Shown in pieces: positions 9,749 to 50,235 of a DNA stretch of 64,000 bases. Position 1 is the stretch's first letter; every line of letters starts with the position of its first letter. The translations under genes were made by a program, and so were the position numbers. The DNA comes from Clostridiales bacterium (GTDB lineage: Bacteria; Bacillota; Clostridia; Oscillospirales; CAG-272): assembly GCA_012514145.1 (NCBI GenBank), contig JAAZAV010000011.1, forward strand, positions 1 through 64,000. The letters run 5' to 3'. A model generated the notes under the pieces. That model did no database searches and was not told the origin of the DNA. It was given only the letters and a program-made list of their open reading frames with translations.

Positions 9749-11275
9749 TTATTTCATTGCTTCAAACGACGCCAGAAGTGTCTCGAGCTTTGCTTCAAAT
9801 TTCGGGTAATTAGACTCCATTGTTGAAGCAGCCGTGCCGGAATTTAATTTGACAAGCTCACGAAACTGCTGCATAACATTGCTTAGTGACGCAGAATAGA
9901 TAAATGCGAAGTCGAAGACCACCGAGTCTGATATCATATCGAGCATCTGCGATGTTTCATCATCGCGGGAATATTTCACTTTCAATGCAGTCTCATAATA
10001 TGCGGGAACAACTGAACGATAACCTTCCGCACACATAGCTTCGATTGTTGCTGCGGCGGCATCAATATCAGAACAGGTAACCGGAACCGAAACGGTCGAG
10101 AATGCGTTATGTATCCAGTTTGTGTACTTCTCCTGTGCCTCGTCGAACTTCGGAACCGGCACTATTCCGAAATCGCTTTCCATATCGCGATAGCTGTCAG
10201 CGCTTGCGAACCTGCCCGAAGCGAACAGACCGGTTTCATTCTTCAGCTTGGTTACGAGCACCGAAACATCTGAACTATTGGGGTCATACCACACAAGCTG
10301 ACCGTGATGAAGGAGCGGAATAATTTTTTCGAGAAAATCGAAGGTATGTTCCTCTTTATTATACACGAGACGCGGCAGTCCTTCGCTGTCACGGCGGCTG
10401 AGAATTACGTTACTTGCACCAACCAGGGAATCAATGTAATTGACAGATTGAGTCACATATCCGTATAGGTCATCAAAGTCAGCCACACCGTTACCGTTCA
10501 GGTCGGAATAGACCGTAGCGCAAAGTTCACCGAGTTTGTCCAGTGTCCAGCTGCCGGAGTTTATCGTGTCATACAGGCTGTCGGAAAAGAATGATGCATA
10601 CATATCTTTATTGTAATAAAATACATATGTACTCTGCAGCTTACAAAGCGAGATATCACCCGCGGCAAAGTAGAGCTGCTCATATACTTGTGCGGCATTG
10701 GCGAAGGATTCTGACCACCAGGGCTGCGCGAAATCAAGATAGTTGAACAGGTTGAGATTATACAGCAATCCCTCAAGGGCGAGCGGAGTAGCCTGACTCA
10801 TATGGTTAAGCAGGATATCGTAATCATCCGAACCGGCTGTCACCGACGCACGAATGAGTTTGTTCATTGCCGCACCGCTGTCAATACCTTCATCAGCAGT
10901 CAAAATCTTTATACCTATGTTCAACCGGTTTTCAACAGACAGCTTTCTGTCGTGCAACGCCGTATTTACTACTTCACCCGACTCTTCCGCATCGATCTCA
11001 AGACGCAAATCGGGGTCACCGAGATTTGGAGCGCTGCCGCGATGCAGGAAACGCATCTCTTTACCGCCGAAATCCAATTCAGGAAGGTTGTCCTTGGCAT
11101 TCTTTCTTAGATTCTCATCTTGGGCTTCGATGGCTTTTGTCTCTGCAACAGTCTCAGATAAAGCAGGCGGAGCGTCATTGCCGCTGCATGATACAAGTAC
11201 GCCGGATAGAATAACGGCAATTAAAAGAACGCCTGCAGTGTAACTTATTGCTTTATTCTCTGATAAAATTTTCAT
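9749..11275 (-). CDS. Extracellular solute-binding lipoprotein (ABC, family 1)
   Basis: A 508-residue lipoprotein. The N-terminus has a hydrophobic signal ending in the lipobox LVSC, then an Asp/Glu/Lys linker and a periplasmic-binding-protein type sequence resembling the large sugar-binding proteins of family 1 (Asp- and Tyr-rich, DLYGYVTQ, TNWIHNAF). No MalF/MalG-type permease or ATPase lies next to it, so it is an orphan receptor or works with a distant transporter. It is the last gene of a minus-strand operon with two sugar isomerase genes. GAGGTG precedes the start. Confidence 0.75.
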   Translation of the reverse strand: MKILSENKAISYTAGVLLIAVILSGVLVSCSGNDAPPALSETVAETKAIEAQDENLRKNAKDNLPELDFGGKEMRFLHRGSAPNLGDPDLRLEIDAEESGEVVNTALHDRKLSVENRLNIGIKILTADEGIDSGAAMNKLIRASVTAGSDDYDILLNHMSQATPLALEGLLYNLNLFNYLDFAQPWWSESFANAAQVYEQLYFAAGDISLCKLQSTYVFYYNKDMYASFFSDSLYDTINSGSWTLDKLGELCATVYSDLNGNGVADFDDLYGYVTQSVNYIDSLVGASNVILSRRDSEGLPRLVYNKEEHTFDFLEKIIPLLHHGQLVWYDPNSSDVSVLVTKLKNETGLFASGRFASADSYRDMESDFGIVPVPKFDEAQEKYTNWIHNAFSTVSVPVTCSDIDAAAATIEAMCAEGYRSVVPAYYETALKVKYSRDDETSQMLDMISDSVVFDFAFIYSASLSNVMQQFRELVKLNSGTAASTMESNYPKFEAKLETLLASFEAMK

Positions 11276-11306: not shown

Positions 11307-12104
11307 TTATCTTCTCAAAGTTTCCTTAAGCATCTTCAGCGCTTTCTTCAGCCCGTCAGGTGACTTGGGAGCGGCGGCTTCAAAGCTGACCGTTCCGTCG
11401 TAGCCGGAAGACTTCAACTCAGCAAGGAGCACCGCAAGTTCTGGCGAATAACCATCCTCGGGCAGTACGCTGTCATAGTCAGACACATGGATATGCAGAA
11501 TATCGGCATCACAACGGCTGATTTCTGTGGCAGGCTCGCGGGATGAAAGCATATGAATTGTGTCGGCTATCAGTTTTACATATGGAGAATTTACCGCACT
11601 AACCACCCGCATACCATCGGCGAGGGTGTTGATAAAGTTACATGACGAATTGCGCAGCGGCTCAATCATTATTCTAATACTATAAGTCTGGCATTCAGGA
11701 ACCATAACATCCCGCACCAGTGCCGAGAATTCCTCATAACCGCGACCACAGTCATATCCATCAGGCAATCGCCGGGAGCGCCCGCTTCCCAGCACTAACT
11801 TATTCGTACCGATCTGCTTTAGTCTGGGAAATACATGACGCAGATAAGCGGTTACCGCACAGGTATCGACATCTTCACCAGTAAGACGCAGATCGCCCGG
11901 GAACATCAGATTGCACACCGGAACACTAACTCCGTTTTCAACAATAAATCGGCAGACCTTTTCAAAAACCTCGTCAGATGCCGCTGCAATCGAGGTTACG
12001 CCGGCTTCAATATAGTCGAAACCGTATTCACTCATACGCAAGATTGCATCGGTACGACCGTCGATCACAGCTCTTACTATATCTAAACAGTTGCCGTAAA
12101 GCAT
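11307..12104 (-). CDS. Sugar phosphate isomerase/epimerase (xylose-isomerase-like TIM barrel)
   Basis: A 265-residue AP-endonuclease-2/xylose-isomerase-like TIM barrel. Likely metal ligands are seen in IEPLRNSSC (Glu), IADTIHM (Asp and His), ILHIHVSD (His) and VSFEAA (Glu). The family interconverts ketoses, keto-acids or keto-sugars, and the substrate is not readable. GGGAGGT precedes ATG. It lies 25 bp after the fused isomerase-dehydrogenase gene and 31 bp before the binding protein, so the three are one operon. Confidence 0.8.
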   Translation of the reverse strand: MLYGNCLDIVRAVIDGRTDAILRMSEYGFDYIEAGVTSIAAASDEVFEKVCRFIVENGVSVPVCNLMFPGDLRLTGEDVDTCAVTAYLRHVFPRLKQIGTNKLVLGSGRSRRLPDGYDCGRGYEEFSALVRDVMVPECQTYSIRIMIEPLRNSSCNFINTLADGMRVVSAVNSPYVKLIADTIHMLSSREPATEISRCDADILHIHVSDYDSVLPEDGYSPELAVLLAELKSSGYDGTVSFEAAAPKSPDGLKKALKMLKETLRR

Positions 12105-12129: not shown

Positions 12130-14028
12130 TCAGACTCTGGGAGACAGGTCTATATCGACCCAGTCTCCTCCGTTGTATGCACTTTCGTAAATTGCGTCAA
12201 GAATAATACGAGACAATCTTCCCTGCCCGCCGCATATATCCAGGGGGGCACCGGTGCGCACGGAGTTGGCGAAATTGTCGCTGCCCTGACGCCACTTAGG
12301 AACAACATCCACCGGGCATTCCTCGGTCCAACCGCCGCCGGGCTTGCTCCACCAGGCATGCTCGCCCTCGGGTCCGCCGCTTGTGCTGACATATGCGCCT
12401 TTTGTTCCGTGAATTTCGTTGCGTGCGTACCAGGAACCGGTGGGATATGTGGTTGTTGAAATGATGCTCACGAATTTTTTATCACCGTAATCCCATACGC
12501 TGGAACCAATATCCTCTCCCTCTATGTCATGACACACGGTAGCAATTGTCGCCCGAACACGTTTTGGCATTCCCAGCAGAAGCAGCATGCGATCAATCTC
12601 ATGAACGCCCTGATTCGCCATCGAACCGCTGCCGTCCATGGCACGGGTTCCGCGCCAGCCGCCGTTCTCGTTGTAGTAATCCTGGGAACGATTGATATAT
12701 AGGACAGTGCGGAACGAAATGATATCCCCGAAGAAACCGCTTTCAACAGTAGCCTTTTGCCTCAGATAGCGTATGCGGTGGCGCTCGTCGAAGTCGACGC
12801 CGAGGAGCAGTCCCTTCTCGTCCGCCAGTCGAATTGCCTTGTCGCAGTTCTCGGTACTTACGTCCATCGGCTTTGTTGTGAGAACATGCTTACCGGCGTT
12901 CATACACTGCATGGCAACCTTGCAGTGTAGACCCGTTGGCAGAACCACGTACATAACTTCAACCTCCGGGTCGTTGAGAAAAACATTGATATTGTCGGAG
13001 TACTTGACGCCGAAGACCTCGCCCACCTCTTTTGCCTTCGCAAGGTTGATATCACATACGCCGTAAAGACGAATACCGCTTGTTTCGGTGAGCTGTTTTG
13101 CGCGGACACGCCCCATTCCCAAGCCGACCACAACGAAACGCACCGGATTGTCGGCGTAGGGACGCTCAAAATCCTGCTGCACCTCTAAAGCCGCTTCGAT
13201 GCTTGATGGCGCAGCGGAAGGCCAGCTCTTGCGTATCGCTTCGATGCACAGACGAGTACACTCAACGGGGGTATAGGGGCTTCCCGCCGGATTGTGGGTC
13301 TCTATAGATACCGGGATATCGCCCCCAAGTGCCGATACGGCACGCAAGACACGAGACCAGGGCACTTTGCGGCTGTCGAAATTTTCAAGTGTCGCACGCG
13401 CCTTGACGTGGATCATGTTGGCACGTTTGATGCATTTGGTAAAGTATGCTACAGCATCTCCCTGAGCCTCTGGAAGAATTTCGAACATATTAGCGCAGTC
13501 AAACGCCATGCCCCAGCCTGTCACGTTCAGTGCATCAAGCAGCGCAATCACCTCGTCGGGCGTCTGACCGCAGTTCTCGAAGCCGAATATCAGTCCGGCT
13601 TCAAGTGCGCGTTTCTTTATGGGTTCGAACATCTCCAGCACTATGTTCATCATGTCGGGGCGCACTGCCAGCTCACCAAGCTCCTTGTCGGTTTCCTTGT
13701 GCTGCCAGTAGTTGAAGGCGCGTACCAGGCGGCAGCCAAGTATATCGGCGGCGCGAATAATACCCTCAAGCTTTTCGAGCTCTTTCTTCCGGCGTTCCTC
13801 GTCGGGCAGATGCACTTTGCACAGTGAGGACTGGATTGCACCTACACGCATACCGTTATCGTCAAGCACGCGCTTCAGCTCATGCAGTTCCTGATCAGTC
13901 TGATACTCGATACCCTTGCCGTTGATGCGGCCTCGGAAATCCACGGCTGTCATGCCCCACTCCTTTAACATGGGGAGCGCCTCGTAGAAATCCATATTTA
14001 ACTCATCGGTGAATACTGAAAGAAACAT
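12130..14028 (-). CDS. Fusion: sugar isomerase/epimerase TIM barrel + Gfo/Idh/MocA oxidoreductase
   Basis: A 632-residue protein made of two enzymes that are normally separate. Residues 1-~265 are a xylose-isomerase-like TIM barrel with all four expected metal ligands: Glu151 (FGFEN), Asp177 (FDCAN), His207 (MIHVKA) and Glu243 (SIETHNP). Residues ~296-632 are a Gfo/Idh/MocA dehydrogenase: Rossmann motif VVGLGMG, Lys386 (TKP in place of EKP), and His476/Asp479 in GVHEID. Both halves look active. NAD-dependent oxidation of a sugar coupled to isomerisation or elimination of the keto product is the natural inference. AGGAGGA precedes the start. There is no stop or frame change at the junction, so it is a genuine single ORF. 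Confidence 0.85.
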   Translation of the reverse strand: MFLSVFTDELNMDFYEALPMLKEWGMTAVDFRGRINGKGIEYQTDQELHELKRVLDDNGMRVGAIQSSLCKVHLPDEERRKKELEKLEGIIRAADILGCRLVRAFNYWQHKETDKELGELAVRPDMMNIVLEMFEPIKKRALEAGLIFGFENCGQTPDEVIALLDALNVTGWGMAFDCANMFEILPEAQGDAVAYFTKCIKRANMIHVKARATLENFDSRKVPWSRVLRAVSALGGDIPVSIETHNPAGSPYTPVECTRLCIEAIRKSWPSAAPSSIEAALEVQQDFERPYADNPVRFVVVGLGMGRVRAKQLTETSGIRLYGVCDINLAKAKEVGEVFGVKYSDNINVFLNDPEVEVMYVVLPTGLHCKVAMQCMNAGKHVLTTKPMDVSTENCDKAIRLADEKGLLLGVDFDERHRIRYLRQKATVESGFFGDIISFRTVLYINRSQDYYNENGGWRGTRAMDGSGSMANQGVHEIDRMLLLLGMPKRVRATIATVCHDIEGEDIGSSVWDYGDKKFVSIISTTTYPTGSWYARNEIHGTKGAYVSTSGGPEGEHAWWSKPGGGWTEECPVDVVPKWRQGSDNFANSVRTGAPLDICGGQGRLSRIILDAIYESAYNGGDWVDIDLSPRV

Positions 14029-14480: not shown

Positions 14481-15650
14481 ATGTATACACCGAAAACTTC
14501 AAGGCATTTTAAAGAGTATACCGATCCGAAATCCGGTATGATCTATTATATACTGGCTACACGGGTCGCGCCGATTCAGCAGGGCTTCTACTTTGTAAAC
14601 TCCGGCTGTGATTATAGCCGAAGGTACATCTGGTTCTACTGTGCCTGCCCGCCAAAATCCGGTCATTATACAGGTGTTGTAGATTTGGAAACTGATGAGG
14701 TCCATGTCTTCCCCGAGACCACGGGAAGCGGATGGATGGTTGATCCCCTTACCGGAAACCTCTGGTGGGGAGACAGTTCCGGCATATACATGCGAACTCC
14801 GGTTCCTGCCGACAAACCCGTGAAGATTGCCGGTATGCCTCCGAAACTCGAAGAATTGAGCGCTCGCTCGCTGGGAGGCACACATCTGACCTTCTCGCCT
14901 GACCGCAGCGAACTGTTTGTGGATGTGCAGACGCCGGAAAGAGGTTCGCATCTGGGCACTATCAAAATCGCTGACGGCAGCTATACCGAGTGGTACGCAA
15001 CAAAGCCCGGTATTCCATATAACCACGGTCAGTTCTGTCCGACAAATTCCGACCTTGCCATGGTTGCCCATGAGTATAAGCTTGATCCCGTGACAAAGAA
15101 GCATATTGCGCCACCGCTGACTGCCGAAGGGATATATCCGCGCTTGCAGCTGATCGGTCGCGACGGGAACCGTGAGATGCGACCTCCGCTGAACAATTAT
15201 GCCACACATGAATGGTGGGCAGAAAGCGGCAGGGCAATCTACTATTGCACCAAGCATTGTATTGCCCGCGACCGTCTGGATGAGAATAAACCCGAGCTTG
15301 TCTGCCACATACCCATTGAAGGCGGAAACGGCACCTGGCACGCCAACTGTACCGGGGACGAACGGTACTTTATTGTTGACGGTTCTCTGCCAAGCATGGG
15401 ACTGTCCTGGTGGCGCGGCTGCGTCTCGGTGGTTCGATTCTGGAATGATGTTACACATAAACTCTGCGACCTTATTACCTACAACCCGATTGTAGGCGGT
15501 TGGACGCCCGAAAATCCCTGCCCTTATCACATCGACCCGCATCCTCGTTTTGTCTGGGATGACGAGTGGGTGACCTTCACTTCTACCGTAACGGGAAATG
15601 TTGATTTTGCAATTGCTCCAGTGGATCAGCTTATCAGAGCTACGGAATGA
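14481..15650 (+). CDS. Beta-propeller protein, oligogalacturonate lyase-like (PL22-like)
   Basis: A 389-residue protein with no signal peptide. It reads as a seven-bladed propeller of the oligogalacturonate lyase type. The stretches YNHGQF, THEWWAESG and DPHPRFVWDD correspond in order to the conserved His-containing segments of PL22 enzymes that hold the Mn ion. PL22 enzymes cut unsaturated or short oligogalacturonides in the cytoplasm after pectin breakdown. The match is by motif memory only; a related non-lyase propeller is possible. AAAGGAG precedes the ATG. It stands alone between its promoter and a terminator. Confidence 0.6.
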   Translation: MYTPKTSRHFKEYTDPKSGMIYYILATRVAPIQQGFYFVNSGCDYSRRYIWFYCACPPKSGHYTGVVDLETDEVHVFPETTGSGWMVDPLTGNLWWGDSSGIYMRTPVPADKPVKIAGMPPKLEELSARSLGGTHLTFSPDRSELFVDVQTPERGSHLGTIKIADGSYTEWYATKPGIPYNHGQFCPTNSDLAMVAHEYKLDPVTKKHIAPPLTAEGIYPRLQLIGRDGNREMRPPLNNYATHEWWAESGRAIYYCTKHCIARDRLDENKPELVCHIPIEGGNGTWHANCTGDERYFIVDGSLPSMGLSWWRGCVSVVRFWNDVTHKLCDLITYNPIVGGWTPENPCPYHIDPHPRFVWDDEWVTFTSTVTGNVDFAIAPVDQLIRATE

Positions 15651-47298: not shown

Positions 47299-50235
47299 AT
47301 GAACATTATTATACTCGGTGCGGGTTTCGCGGGTATTGCCGCCGCATGCCGGCTCTCGGAGTCGGGACACAGTGTCAGTATTATTGATGAACACAGCTTC
47401 GCCGGCGGTGATATCGTTGCGTGTCAGCATACTCACGCTGTCAACGGGCGTTACGGTTGTCGTATCGACCAGCCCAACGGGCGCATGAAAGCTGAACTCT
47501 ACGGCAGGCTTCGCGATGCCGGTGTTAATGTTTGCTTCATGGCTCGTCTGTGCGGTCTATATACCGATGGTAAATCGGTAACCGGCGCGGCATTTGCCAC
47601 AAAATACGGGATACTTGCCCTTGACGCTGACTTGGTGATTGACTGTACTCCTCACGGCTCCGGCGCATCGTTTCTCACCGGCAGACTTCCCTGCCCCGTT
47701 GAGGCGGAGTACGGCTTCGATATGTCGGGTGTGGATGCCGTAATGAAACCAATTGAACCGATGCCGGGGCTCGGACTGACGGGTGACTGTGTAAAGATCG
47801 GACGAACCATGCGCTCGAATACTGCGAATATTTCCTTCTCCTTCCCTGTTTCGTCTGACAGCACAATGACGCGACATGAAATCGAACGTCATGCTCATGA
47901 GCTCGCCGCCGCCATAGCTATAAAGCTCCGTTCCCTGCCCGATTACGCAGGAGCGAGTGTCCAGCTCATCGGCTCACATACCCGACTTACCTGCCGGGAA
48001 CCGATACGCGACAGCCGTTTGCCGTATATAGAAGCAGCATTGCCATCAGATTTTACCCTCGCTGACAGGCGTACTCTTGAGAGAAACGCCGAATCGGAAG
48101 CGGAAAGGCTTGTGCTTCCTTATGTAGATAATACGGTGAATCTTTCAGACCGTGAACTGATAAGTATGGGAAGTCCCATACACGGTATTACACGTGAGGA
48201 CACGGAGATACCAGGTATTTACAGACTTAACTTTGACTTTACCAAGCAGAACTTTATCACCCGGCAAACCGATGTTCTGGTGGCAGGCGCGGGAACCGGC
48301 GGCGCAATGGCGGCATGGGCACTGAAGAATCAGAATACAGACTGCATAGCTGCGGACGCTCTGTATTGCTGCGGCGGAACCAATACCGTGGGCAGAGTTT
48401 TCGGAAACTGGCACGGTTACAACGATGCTATGTTCACAGAGCGGCTTAGACTGGTGAAGGAAATGGCTGAAACTCCGGCTTTAAGCAACCGTATAGCTGC
48501 CATTTTGATGTGGGATCGTGTGCTCGGTGATTCGCTTCTCGGCGGCATGACGGTTTGCGGTGCCAAGCTTTCTGACGGCAAAATAGCCGGTGTACTGCTC
48601 TGCGGAGAGAATGGCTTTGAGGTAGTATACTCAAAATATGTTATTGACGGCACTGCGGACGGCGATGTTGCCGCTTTTGCCGGACTGCCCTACACCATCG
48701 GCGGTGAGCGTGACGGTATGCTTCAAACTTCAAGCATGTGGGGATATGAGTACTCGATTACCAAAGCGTTCCCCCTTACGCGCTTCAACTCCGATGAGGA
48801 TGTGATAGATCCCGATTCTTATGCCGACCTTATGCGCGGGATTGGTCTCGGCTACCTGAAAAACAGTGAATATGAAATCGTCGAGATGTGTATGCAGCGT
48901 GAGTCAAGACACTTCGACTGCCGCAATGAGCTTACAATGGCGGGTATTGCGCGGCGTGAGTGCCACGATGATGACATTGCGGTGGGCTACTGTCGGCACG
49001 ATTCCCACTGCCGCCCCAGTTCGCTTATGAATCAGTTCTATCTCTTTTCGTCACGCATGATGGAAGCCGGCGCCGATGATATACGCATAAGGATGCCACT
49101 CGGTATGTTTTTGCCCTTTGGCACCGACAACCTTGCCATAGTCGGCAAGAGTATGGCGGGTGAGCGGGAGGCAGCGGCACTCTGCCGTATGAACCCCGAT
49201 ATTTCCAACTCCGGATACGCTGTTGGATGTGTAGTTTCGGCGGCTTTGACGCAGGGCACGCCGATTCATATCACAGACCTCTCTGATGTCAGGACAGAAC
49301 TTCGTGAGCTGAGAATCCTGCCTGATTGGGCGGGTTCCCCCTCCGACCGACTTGGAATTACTGAGGCGAAAGAGGCTCTCTCCGATCCCGTTGACTTCGG
49401 ATTTTCATCTATGGTTCAGCCACGTGATGGTATTGTTCCTGTTCTTCTTGAAGCCCTGTGCGACAGAGGTGTACGCGGCGATAATGCTGCAATGGCACTT
49501 GGCTGGCACGGCTGTCCAGAAGCCTCTCCCAGGTTGCTTTCGCTGCTGAAACGCGCTCTTACCCGGGACGCTCTGCGGTTTGATGTAGACGGCACCGAGA
49601 TAACGGCGATATGCGCCGACGGCGGCAGCTGTTCGGTGAATCCGAATAAAACCTACGGCTATGTCAGCGTCCCGATGGGTGATCCGATTTGTTCATATGG
49701 TCTTGTAAACGCTCTGATTGTCCTGCTTGGTTTAGCGGGCGGAGAGGGTCTTGACGAGGTGCTTAAACAGCTTGATACAGCCCTTGAGCGCGACTTTACT
49801 TCTCAGCGTCTTTCCGGACTCACCCCCTATGCCCTCAACCGAATAGACGGTCACAAGCTGCTCTGCGAAGATCGGCTGTGGAGTCTGATTTACGCCTGCG
49901 AACGACTCGCGGATTGTTCCGCTGCCGCACCGCTGGAGGAACTGCTTGAACGCATTGCGATTCATACAGAACATTCATACCATGATATGTGGACCTCTGT
50001 AACACCTCCCCGGATCACTCTGCTGGAGATCGGCTGTGCCCGTGCCGCCGCACACTGCGGTTCCCTTGCCGGAGCCGTAAGACTTTCGGAATATACCTGC
50101 GATGCCCGCTCGGTCTTTTCGAAGATGGCAAAGCGTGCACTTTGTGAAGTCTACGGCGCGAATTGGCATGAGTCCCTCGACAAAAATATCTCCCCTCAGG
50201 TTACCGCATATCGCGGCGATCCGTATCAGGGCTAA
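47299..50235 (+). CDS. Large FAD-dependent oxidoreductase with two nucleotide-binding motifs
   Basis: 978 residues, about twice a typical FAD_oxidored protein. A first FAD motif IIILGAGFAGIAAACRL starts the protein; a second, VLVAGAGTGGAMAAWALK, lies near residue 328, with FGNWHGYN and DGTADGDVAAFAGLP downstream as in PF12831-type enzymes. The last ~280 residues form a helical tail of unknown role. No signal peptide. It precedes a sulfatase by 35 bp. Oxidation of a sugar or glycoside is inferred from context only. Confidence 0.78.
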   Translation: MNIIILGAGFAGIAAACRLSESGHSVSIIDEHSFAGGDIVACQHTHAVNGRYGCRIDQPNGRMKAELYGRLRDAGVNVCFMARLCGLYTDGKSVTGAAFATKYGILALDADLVIDCTPHGSGASFLTGRLPCPVEAEYGFDMSGVDAVMKPIEPMPGLGLTGDCVKIGRTMRSNTANISFSFPVSSDSTMTRHEIERHAHELAAAIAIKLRSLPDYAGASVQLIGSHTRLTCREPIRDSRLPYIEAALPSDFTLADRRTLERNAESEAERLVLPYVDNTVNLSDRELISMGSPIHGITREDTEIPGIYRLNFDFTKQNFITRQTDVLVAGAGTGGAMAAWALKNQNTDCIAADALYCCGGTNTVGRVFGNWHGYNDAMFTERLRLVKEMAETPALSNRIAAILMWDRVLGDSLLGGMTVCGAKLSDGKIAGVLLCGENGFEVVYSKYVIDGTADGDVAAFAGLPYTIGGERDGMLQTSSMWGYEYSITKAFPLTRFNSDEDVIDPDSYADLMRGIGLGYLKNSEYEIVEMCMQRESRHFDCRNELTMAGIARRECHDDDIAVGYCRHDSHCRPSSLMNQFYLFSSRMMEAGADDIRIRMPLGMFLPFGTDNLAIVGKSMAGEREAAALCRMNPDISNSGYAVGCVVSAALTQGTPIHITDLSDVRTELRELRILPDWAGSPSDRLGITEAKEALSDPVDFGFSSMVQPRDGIVPVLLEALCDRGVRGDNAAMALGWHGCPEASPRLLSLLKRALTRDALRFDVDGTEITAICADGGSCSVNPNKTYGYVSVPMGDPICSYGLVNALIVLLGLAGGEGLDEVLKQLDTALERDFTSQRLSGLTPYALNRIDGHKLLCEDRLWSLIYACERLADCSAAAPLEELLERIAIHTEHSYHDMWTSVTPPRITLLEIGCARAAAHCGSLAGAVRLSEYTCDARSVFSKMAKRALCEVYGANWHESLDKNISPQVTAYRGDPYQG

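Follow-up and report, generated by a model that had tools for sequence, protein, structure and literature searches.

An open reading frame in the 64,000-nucleotide stretch of Clostridiales DNA analyzed here (the window) joins a xylose-isomerase-like barrel and a Gfo/Idh/MocA dehydrogenase in one polypeptide (Table 1). We consider it probable that this fusion is a genuine bifunctional enzyme, belonging to one conserved family, that couples NAD-linked oxidation of a sugar or glycoside to enolization of the keto-sugar. A partnership known from separate enzymes is here found as one protein, and uncultured bacteria of at least nine phyla have kept it in this form. Because both enzymes sit on one polypeptide, the coupling of oxidation to enolization is testable with one purified protein.

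Table 1. Positions in the window of the fusion, its parts, and the genes downstream of it
Feature	Position	Strand	Evidence or context
Barrel-dehydrogenase fusion, 632 aa	12130..14028	(-)	Open frame from ATG, Pfam, AlphaFold2
Barrel half, residues 1-282	13183..14028	(-)	Metal ligands E151, D177, H207, E243; profile alignment to D-tagatose 3-epimerase
Linker, ~residues 265-295	13144..13236	(-)	Translation and linker length statistics
Dehydrogenase half, from ~residue 289	12133..13164	(-)	G302-x-G304-x-G306, D326, K386, N472-Q473-x-x-H476
Second xylose-isomerase-like barrel, ketose 3-epimerase-like	11307..12104	(-)	25 bp downstream of fusion; GGGAGG ribosome-binding site
Extracellular solute-binding protein (sugar-type)	9749..11275	(-)	31 bp downstream of second barrel; own ribosome-binding site

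The ATG of the fusion is preceded by an AGGAGG ribosome-binding site. Pfam places AP_endonuc_2 at residues 21 to 247 (E 1.1e-17), GFO_IDH_MocA (PF01408) at residues 296 to 413 (E 9.4e-23), and the C-terminal dehydrogenase domain at residues 422 to 546/425 to 625 (PF22725, E 2.5e-20; PF02894, E 6.9e-14). A preceding sequence-only reading had described a single frame with four barrel metal ligands, a linker of about 30 residues, and a complete dehydrogenase. The 632-aa frame is indeed open with both domains complete by Pfam, the four ligands do not vary among the 54 fusions aligned, and the linker measures 32 residues in 38 of those 54. The description of the dehydrogenase holds in part, with the Rossmann glycines, K386, and H476 in place but the classical Asp replaced by an invariant Asn472. 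A scan of the linker for a Met codon able to start the second half separately found none. The AlphaFold2 model of the whole fusion had a mean pLDDT of 93.3 and a pTM of 0.84, so the predicted domain arrangement can be taken with some confidence. No solved structure spanning both domains was among the 50 matches listed, the best of which had a query TM of 0.48. NCBIfam matches to the fusion were at the superfamily level only, all far under their cut-offs.

A search of 97 relatives recovered the same fusion in two further genera of the window's family (56% identity), and a class-wide search recovered it in four more families, with fused barrels 52 to 62% identical and every unfused barrel 35% or less. 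When each GTDB species was represented by one genome, 71 loci were recovered. Of these, 51 encode intact full-length fusions that are 40 to 74% identical, over and above the copies from the two narrower searches; the other close matches were mostly interrupted by contig ends. The carriers, about 60 genomes mostly from anaerobic groups of bacteria, span at least nine phyla: Bacillota, Spirochaetota, Chloroflexota, Planctomycetota, Armatimonadota, Lentisphaerota, Verrucomicrobiota, Kiritimatiellota, and Poribacteria. Host groups were read off record titles, which name Clostridia, Oscillospiraceae, Lachnospiraceae, Treponema and other spirochaetes, Chloroflexi, Planctomycetota, Armatimonadetes, Poribacteria, Lentisphaeria/Victivallales, Verrucomicrobia, and Kiritimatiellota. 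The fusion is widespread but rare, given that the window's own genome was the only carrier in a phylum-wide sample of 399 genomes. Every host is metagenome-assembled or uncultured, which may be why the fusion has so far gone undescribed. Literature searches for a barrel-Gfo fusion, and for the Gfo-glycyl-radical link discussed below, returned nothing relevant within openly accessible papers, where the slash in "Gfo/Idh/MocA" limits retrieval. No relatives of the fusion were found in viral contigs. One candidate further fusion, in G014, resolved as two adjacent genes, and a Treponema copy (L088, 4550-6430) is broken by one in-frame TAG.

It is exceedingly improbable that the frame arose as an assembly or sequencing artifact joining neighboring genes, or that it is a lone idiosyncratic fusion. 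In favor of an artifact, unfused barrel and Gfo genes do lie side by side in relatives, in more distant families (L023, L026, and L163). Against this stand 51 intact copies in independent assemblies, which rule out an assembly error, as well as the conserved linker length and the congruence of the two halves within one clade. The sequence-only reading had named confinement of the fusion to this assembly as the outcome that would count against it, and the opposite was found.

A tree that also contained 26 unfused Gfo proteins placed all 54 fused dehydrogenase halves on one side of a branch with a support of 99, and distances between barrel halves track those between dehydrogenase halves (r = 0.92; none of 999 permutations was as high). 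The single dehydrogenase clade and the in-step divergence of the halves suggest that the fusion probably arose once. In two PVC-group assemblies, the barrel is encoded separately although it nests inside the fused clade; the Gfo gene next to it is non-orthologous, and neither genome yielded a close copy when searched for an orthologue of the fused dehydrogenase half. This re-pairing of the barrel with a different Gfo protein is an argument that the two activities go together, and we infer that selection keeps them so. The functional coupling proposed from the sequence is thus strengthened: no fewer than nine phyla keep the fusion, its two halves diverge together, and unfused partners from related families are often neighbors. 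At the loci of this apparent fission, L133 (855-3007) and L134 (83-2149), the fused-type barrel gene and the unrelated Gfo gene are followed by a sulfatase-like gene. A different kind of fusion occurs at L063 (1192-2784, minus strand; G231), where two xylose-isomerase-like barrels share a 530-aa frame adjoined by a Gfo-like gene.

Both Pfam and fold searches assign the C-terminal half to the Gfo/Idh/MocA family, with a Rossmann NAD-binding domain and a C-terminal alpha/beta domain. G302, G304, G306, D326, K386, N472, Q473, and H476 are invariant in all 54 fusions, K386 and H476 being the catalytic Lys and His of the family. D326 closes the second Rossmann strand, and an Asp at this position suggests NAD rather than NADP as the predicted cofactor. 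The nearest solved structures, among the 50 listed, include WlbA (a UDP-GlcNAcA C3 dehydrogenase), glucose-fructose oxidoreductase, levoglucosan dehydrogenase, and glucuronide 3-dehydrogenase. WlbA is the best solved relative, sharing the catalytic Lys and the N472-Q-x-x-H476 motif, but it is about 25% identical, stands alone, and uses a nucleotide-sugar substrate. Judging by the similarity of the dehydrogenase half to C3 dehydrogenases, oxidation would most likely take place at C3. The levoglucosan dehydrogenase model NF052479 (NCBIfam) scored 70.5 bits against a cut-off of 650.

TIGR04380 (IolG; E 5e-23) ranks second among the NCBIfam matches to the dehydrogenase half, and an IolE structure is among the matches of the barrel, as would be expected if an IolG-like dehydrogenase and an IolE/IolI-like barrel acted on an inosose or other polyol. 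We regard such inositol-type chemistry as improbable. The TIGR04380 score is 81.5 against a cut-off of 355, and the second barrel downstream resembles ketose 3-epimerases rather than inositol enzymes. Furthermore, classical inositol dehydrogenases carry an Asp four residues ahead of the catalytic His, but this position is the invariant Asn472 in the fusions and likewise an Asn in WlbA.

The barrel half belongs to the xylose-isomerase-like (AP_endonuc_2) superfamily by its Pfam profile and its set of metal ligands. R32, K71, R103, E151, N152, C153, D177, H207, K209, E243, T244, and H245 are invariant in all 54 fusions, and by their conserved residues both halves are apparently active. The top matches among solved structures are D-tagatose 3-epimerases (ketose 3-epimerases), and a profile alignment (E 1e-4) lines up all four metal ligands with the Glu/Asp/His/Glu site of D-tagatose 3-epimerase. 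The resemblance to the D-tagatose/D-psicose 3-epimerases is more distant than family level, with 12 to 18% identity (15 to 18% to structures of D-tagatose 3-epimerase) and Asn180 in place of the substrate-binding His after the Asp ligand, and those enzymes have no dehydrogenase link. These unlike active-site surroundings weigh against an epimerase or isomerase role, as does an identity of just 11 to 20% to any solved structure, because of which the reaction of the barrel is not readable from homology.

Lower-ranked matches of the barrel include the 3-keto-glucopyranoside 1,2-lyase AL1, the hydratase AtHYD, and DgpB-C, which raises an unlikely but serious alternative: that beta-elimination or hydration comes after oxidation, with the barrel as a 3-keto-glycoside lyase or 2-hydroxy-3-keto-glucal hydratase and the fusion as a glycoside-cleaving enzyme. 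Barrels of the same superfamily act in this way with Gfo partners, as with LgdB1/LgdB2 (PMC7676230) and OGE/CGE (PMC10628242). Three spirochaetes carry a different second barrel behind the fusion, and two of them (L123/L124) have a GH130 gene after it, which suggests glycoside substrates. However, the catalytic His of CGE and OGE lies two residues past the strand-5 metal ligand (PMC10628242), and this position is the invariant Cys153 in the fusions. This residue, together with the lead of ketose 3-epimerases over such lyases among the matches and the alignment of their metal ligands, favors enolization leading to epimerization or isomerization over beta-elimination. The Cys also rules out membership among the C-glycoside lyases, and the equivalence to C-glycoside deglycosylation drawn in the sequence-only reading becomes a partial parallel at most. 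In C- and O-glycoside deglycosylation (DgpA with DgpB-C [CGE]; AtOGE), C3 oxidation, either Gfo-type (DgpA) or flavin-dependent, is likewise followed by a Mn-dependent barrel, but the proteins are separate and CGE has two subunits.

In the proposed reaction, NAD-linked oxidation by the dehydrogenase half would turn a single hydroxyl of a sugar or glycoside, most likely that at C3, into a ketone. The metal-dependent barrel would polarize this ketone, take a proton from the neighboring carbon to give an enediolate, and re-protonate it, so that an epimerized or isomerized product results. The same NADH may then reduce the keto product again, or the product may be handed to the second barrel; in many relatives, it may be passed on to a glycyl radical enzyme. 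The substrate, the position of oxidation, the epimerase/isomerase rather than lyase chemistry, and any channeling are what we infer. Levoglucosan breakdown in Bacillus smithii offers the closest known logic, with the Gfo enzymes LgdA/LgdC and the barrels LgdB1/LgdB2 acting in turn (PMC7676230). The same two superfamilies thus work in sequence on a 3-keto sugar, with two barrels per pathway (PMC7676230), but as four separate proteins rather than one polypeptide; the barrel of the fusion also appears to be of a distinct family, and the fusion has a radical enzyme partner. With LgdB1 added, LgdA activity rose from 0.44 to 0.98 units/mg, which the authors credit to relief of product inhibition (PMC7676230). 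This doubling gives a plausible reason for the fusion, in which both active sites would be equal in amount and close together and would draw off the inhibitory keto product.

With gaps of 25 and 31 bp and a ribosome-binding site for each gene, the fusion, the second barrel, and the solute-binding protein look like one operon. The proposal that the second barrel is a partner gains from the two closest relatives (L075 and L094), in which its orthologue (46% identity) also lies directly downstream, 15 bp from the fusion. The sugar-binding lipoprotein proposed as a further partner shares the operon in the window, but a counterpart was found in none of the 62 other loci, which rules it out as a conserved partner. 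The original interpretation therefore stands as to functional coupling and the second barrel, and falls as to C-glycoside equivalence and a conserved lipoprotein. A divergent AraC regulator is frequent among the Bacillota loci (17 loci).

Of 62 loci, 12 (nine from Bacillota, three from Lentisphaerota) carry a glycyl radical enzyme of one subtype together with the fusion. If a 3-Mb genome is assumed to hold no more than two such enzymes, chance alone would place one with the fusion in about 1 locus (binomial p about 1e-10, the loci being non-independent through shared ancestry). The glycyl radical enzyme and its activase, which are not part of the fusion protein, are usually in one operon with it, the activase lying 3 to 45 bp downstream of the fusion in 8 of the 12 loci; a cupin gene occurs in 11 and a PMI-like gene in 7. 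Both closest full-length relatives (L075 and L094, 74%) have the order activase, glycyl radical enzyme, cupin, PMI-like, fusion, second barrel, and L102 (75%), whose contig ends inside the fusion, has the first part of this order. The radical enzyme has intact Cys (GCHWM) and Gly-radical motifs and does not have the GCxE Glu that known glycyl radical enzyme dehydratases carry, and no NCBIfam equivalog matched it above cut-off. At L081, its gene is 519 aa as called.

The window retains only the last two genes of that order, the fusion and the second barrel, and the glycyl radical enzyme operon is absent next to its fusion. A search of the window's genome (85% complete) found no cupin orthologue and a single, weak PMI-like match (E 7.8e-8). 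The link between the fusion and the glycyl radical enzyme therefore rests on the relatives. A 47% relative of the radical enzyme lies on another contig of the window's genome, beside four Gfo genes and an activase.

Taken with its glycyl radical enzyme loci, the fusion points to an undescribed sugar-degradation route. More specifically, and tentatively, the fusion might act at the start of an anaerobic sugar pathway, with NAD-linked oxidation and keto-sugar epimerization supplying the substrate of a new type of glycyl radical enzyme (GCHWM, no GCxE Glu) and the cupin and mannose-6-phosphate-isomerase-like proteins completing the route. As a recurring neighbor, the fusion also provides a handle on this uncharacterized glycyl radical enzyme subtype, which is present in several herbivore-gut assemblies.

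The 2.8-Mb assembly of the window's genome is rich in Gfo/Idh/MocA domains, with 56 in all. The closest of its 15 glycyl radical enzyme matches (G000:C59:22000-41999; L154) has an activase, four Gfo/Idh/MocA genes, and a solute-binding protein as cluster neighbors. Opposite the fusion in the window, a divergent gene of 389 aa (14481-15650, plus strand) had no Pfam or NCBIfam match and no convincing solved structure. A 978-aa open reading frame further along the window (47299-50235, plus strand) seemingly has two FAD-binding motifs, GAGFAG near the N terminus and GAGTGG in the middle, and is perhaps another fusion.
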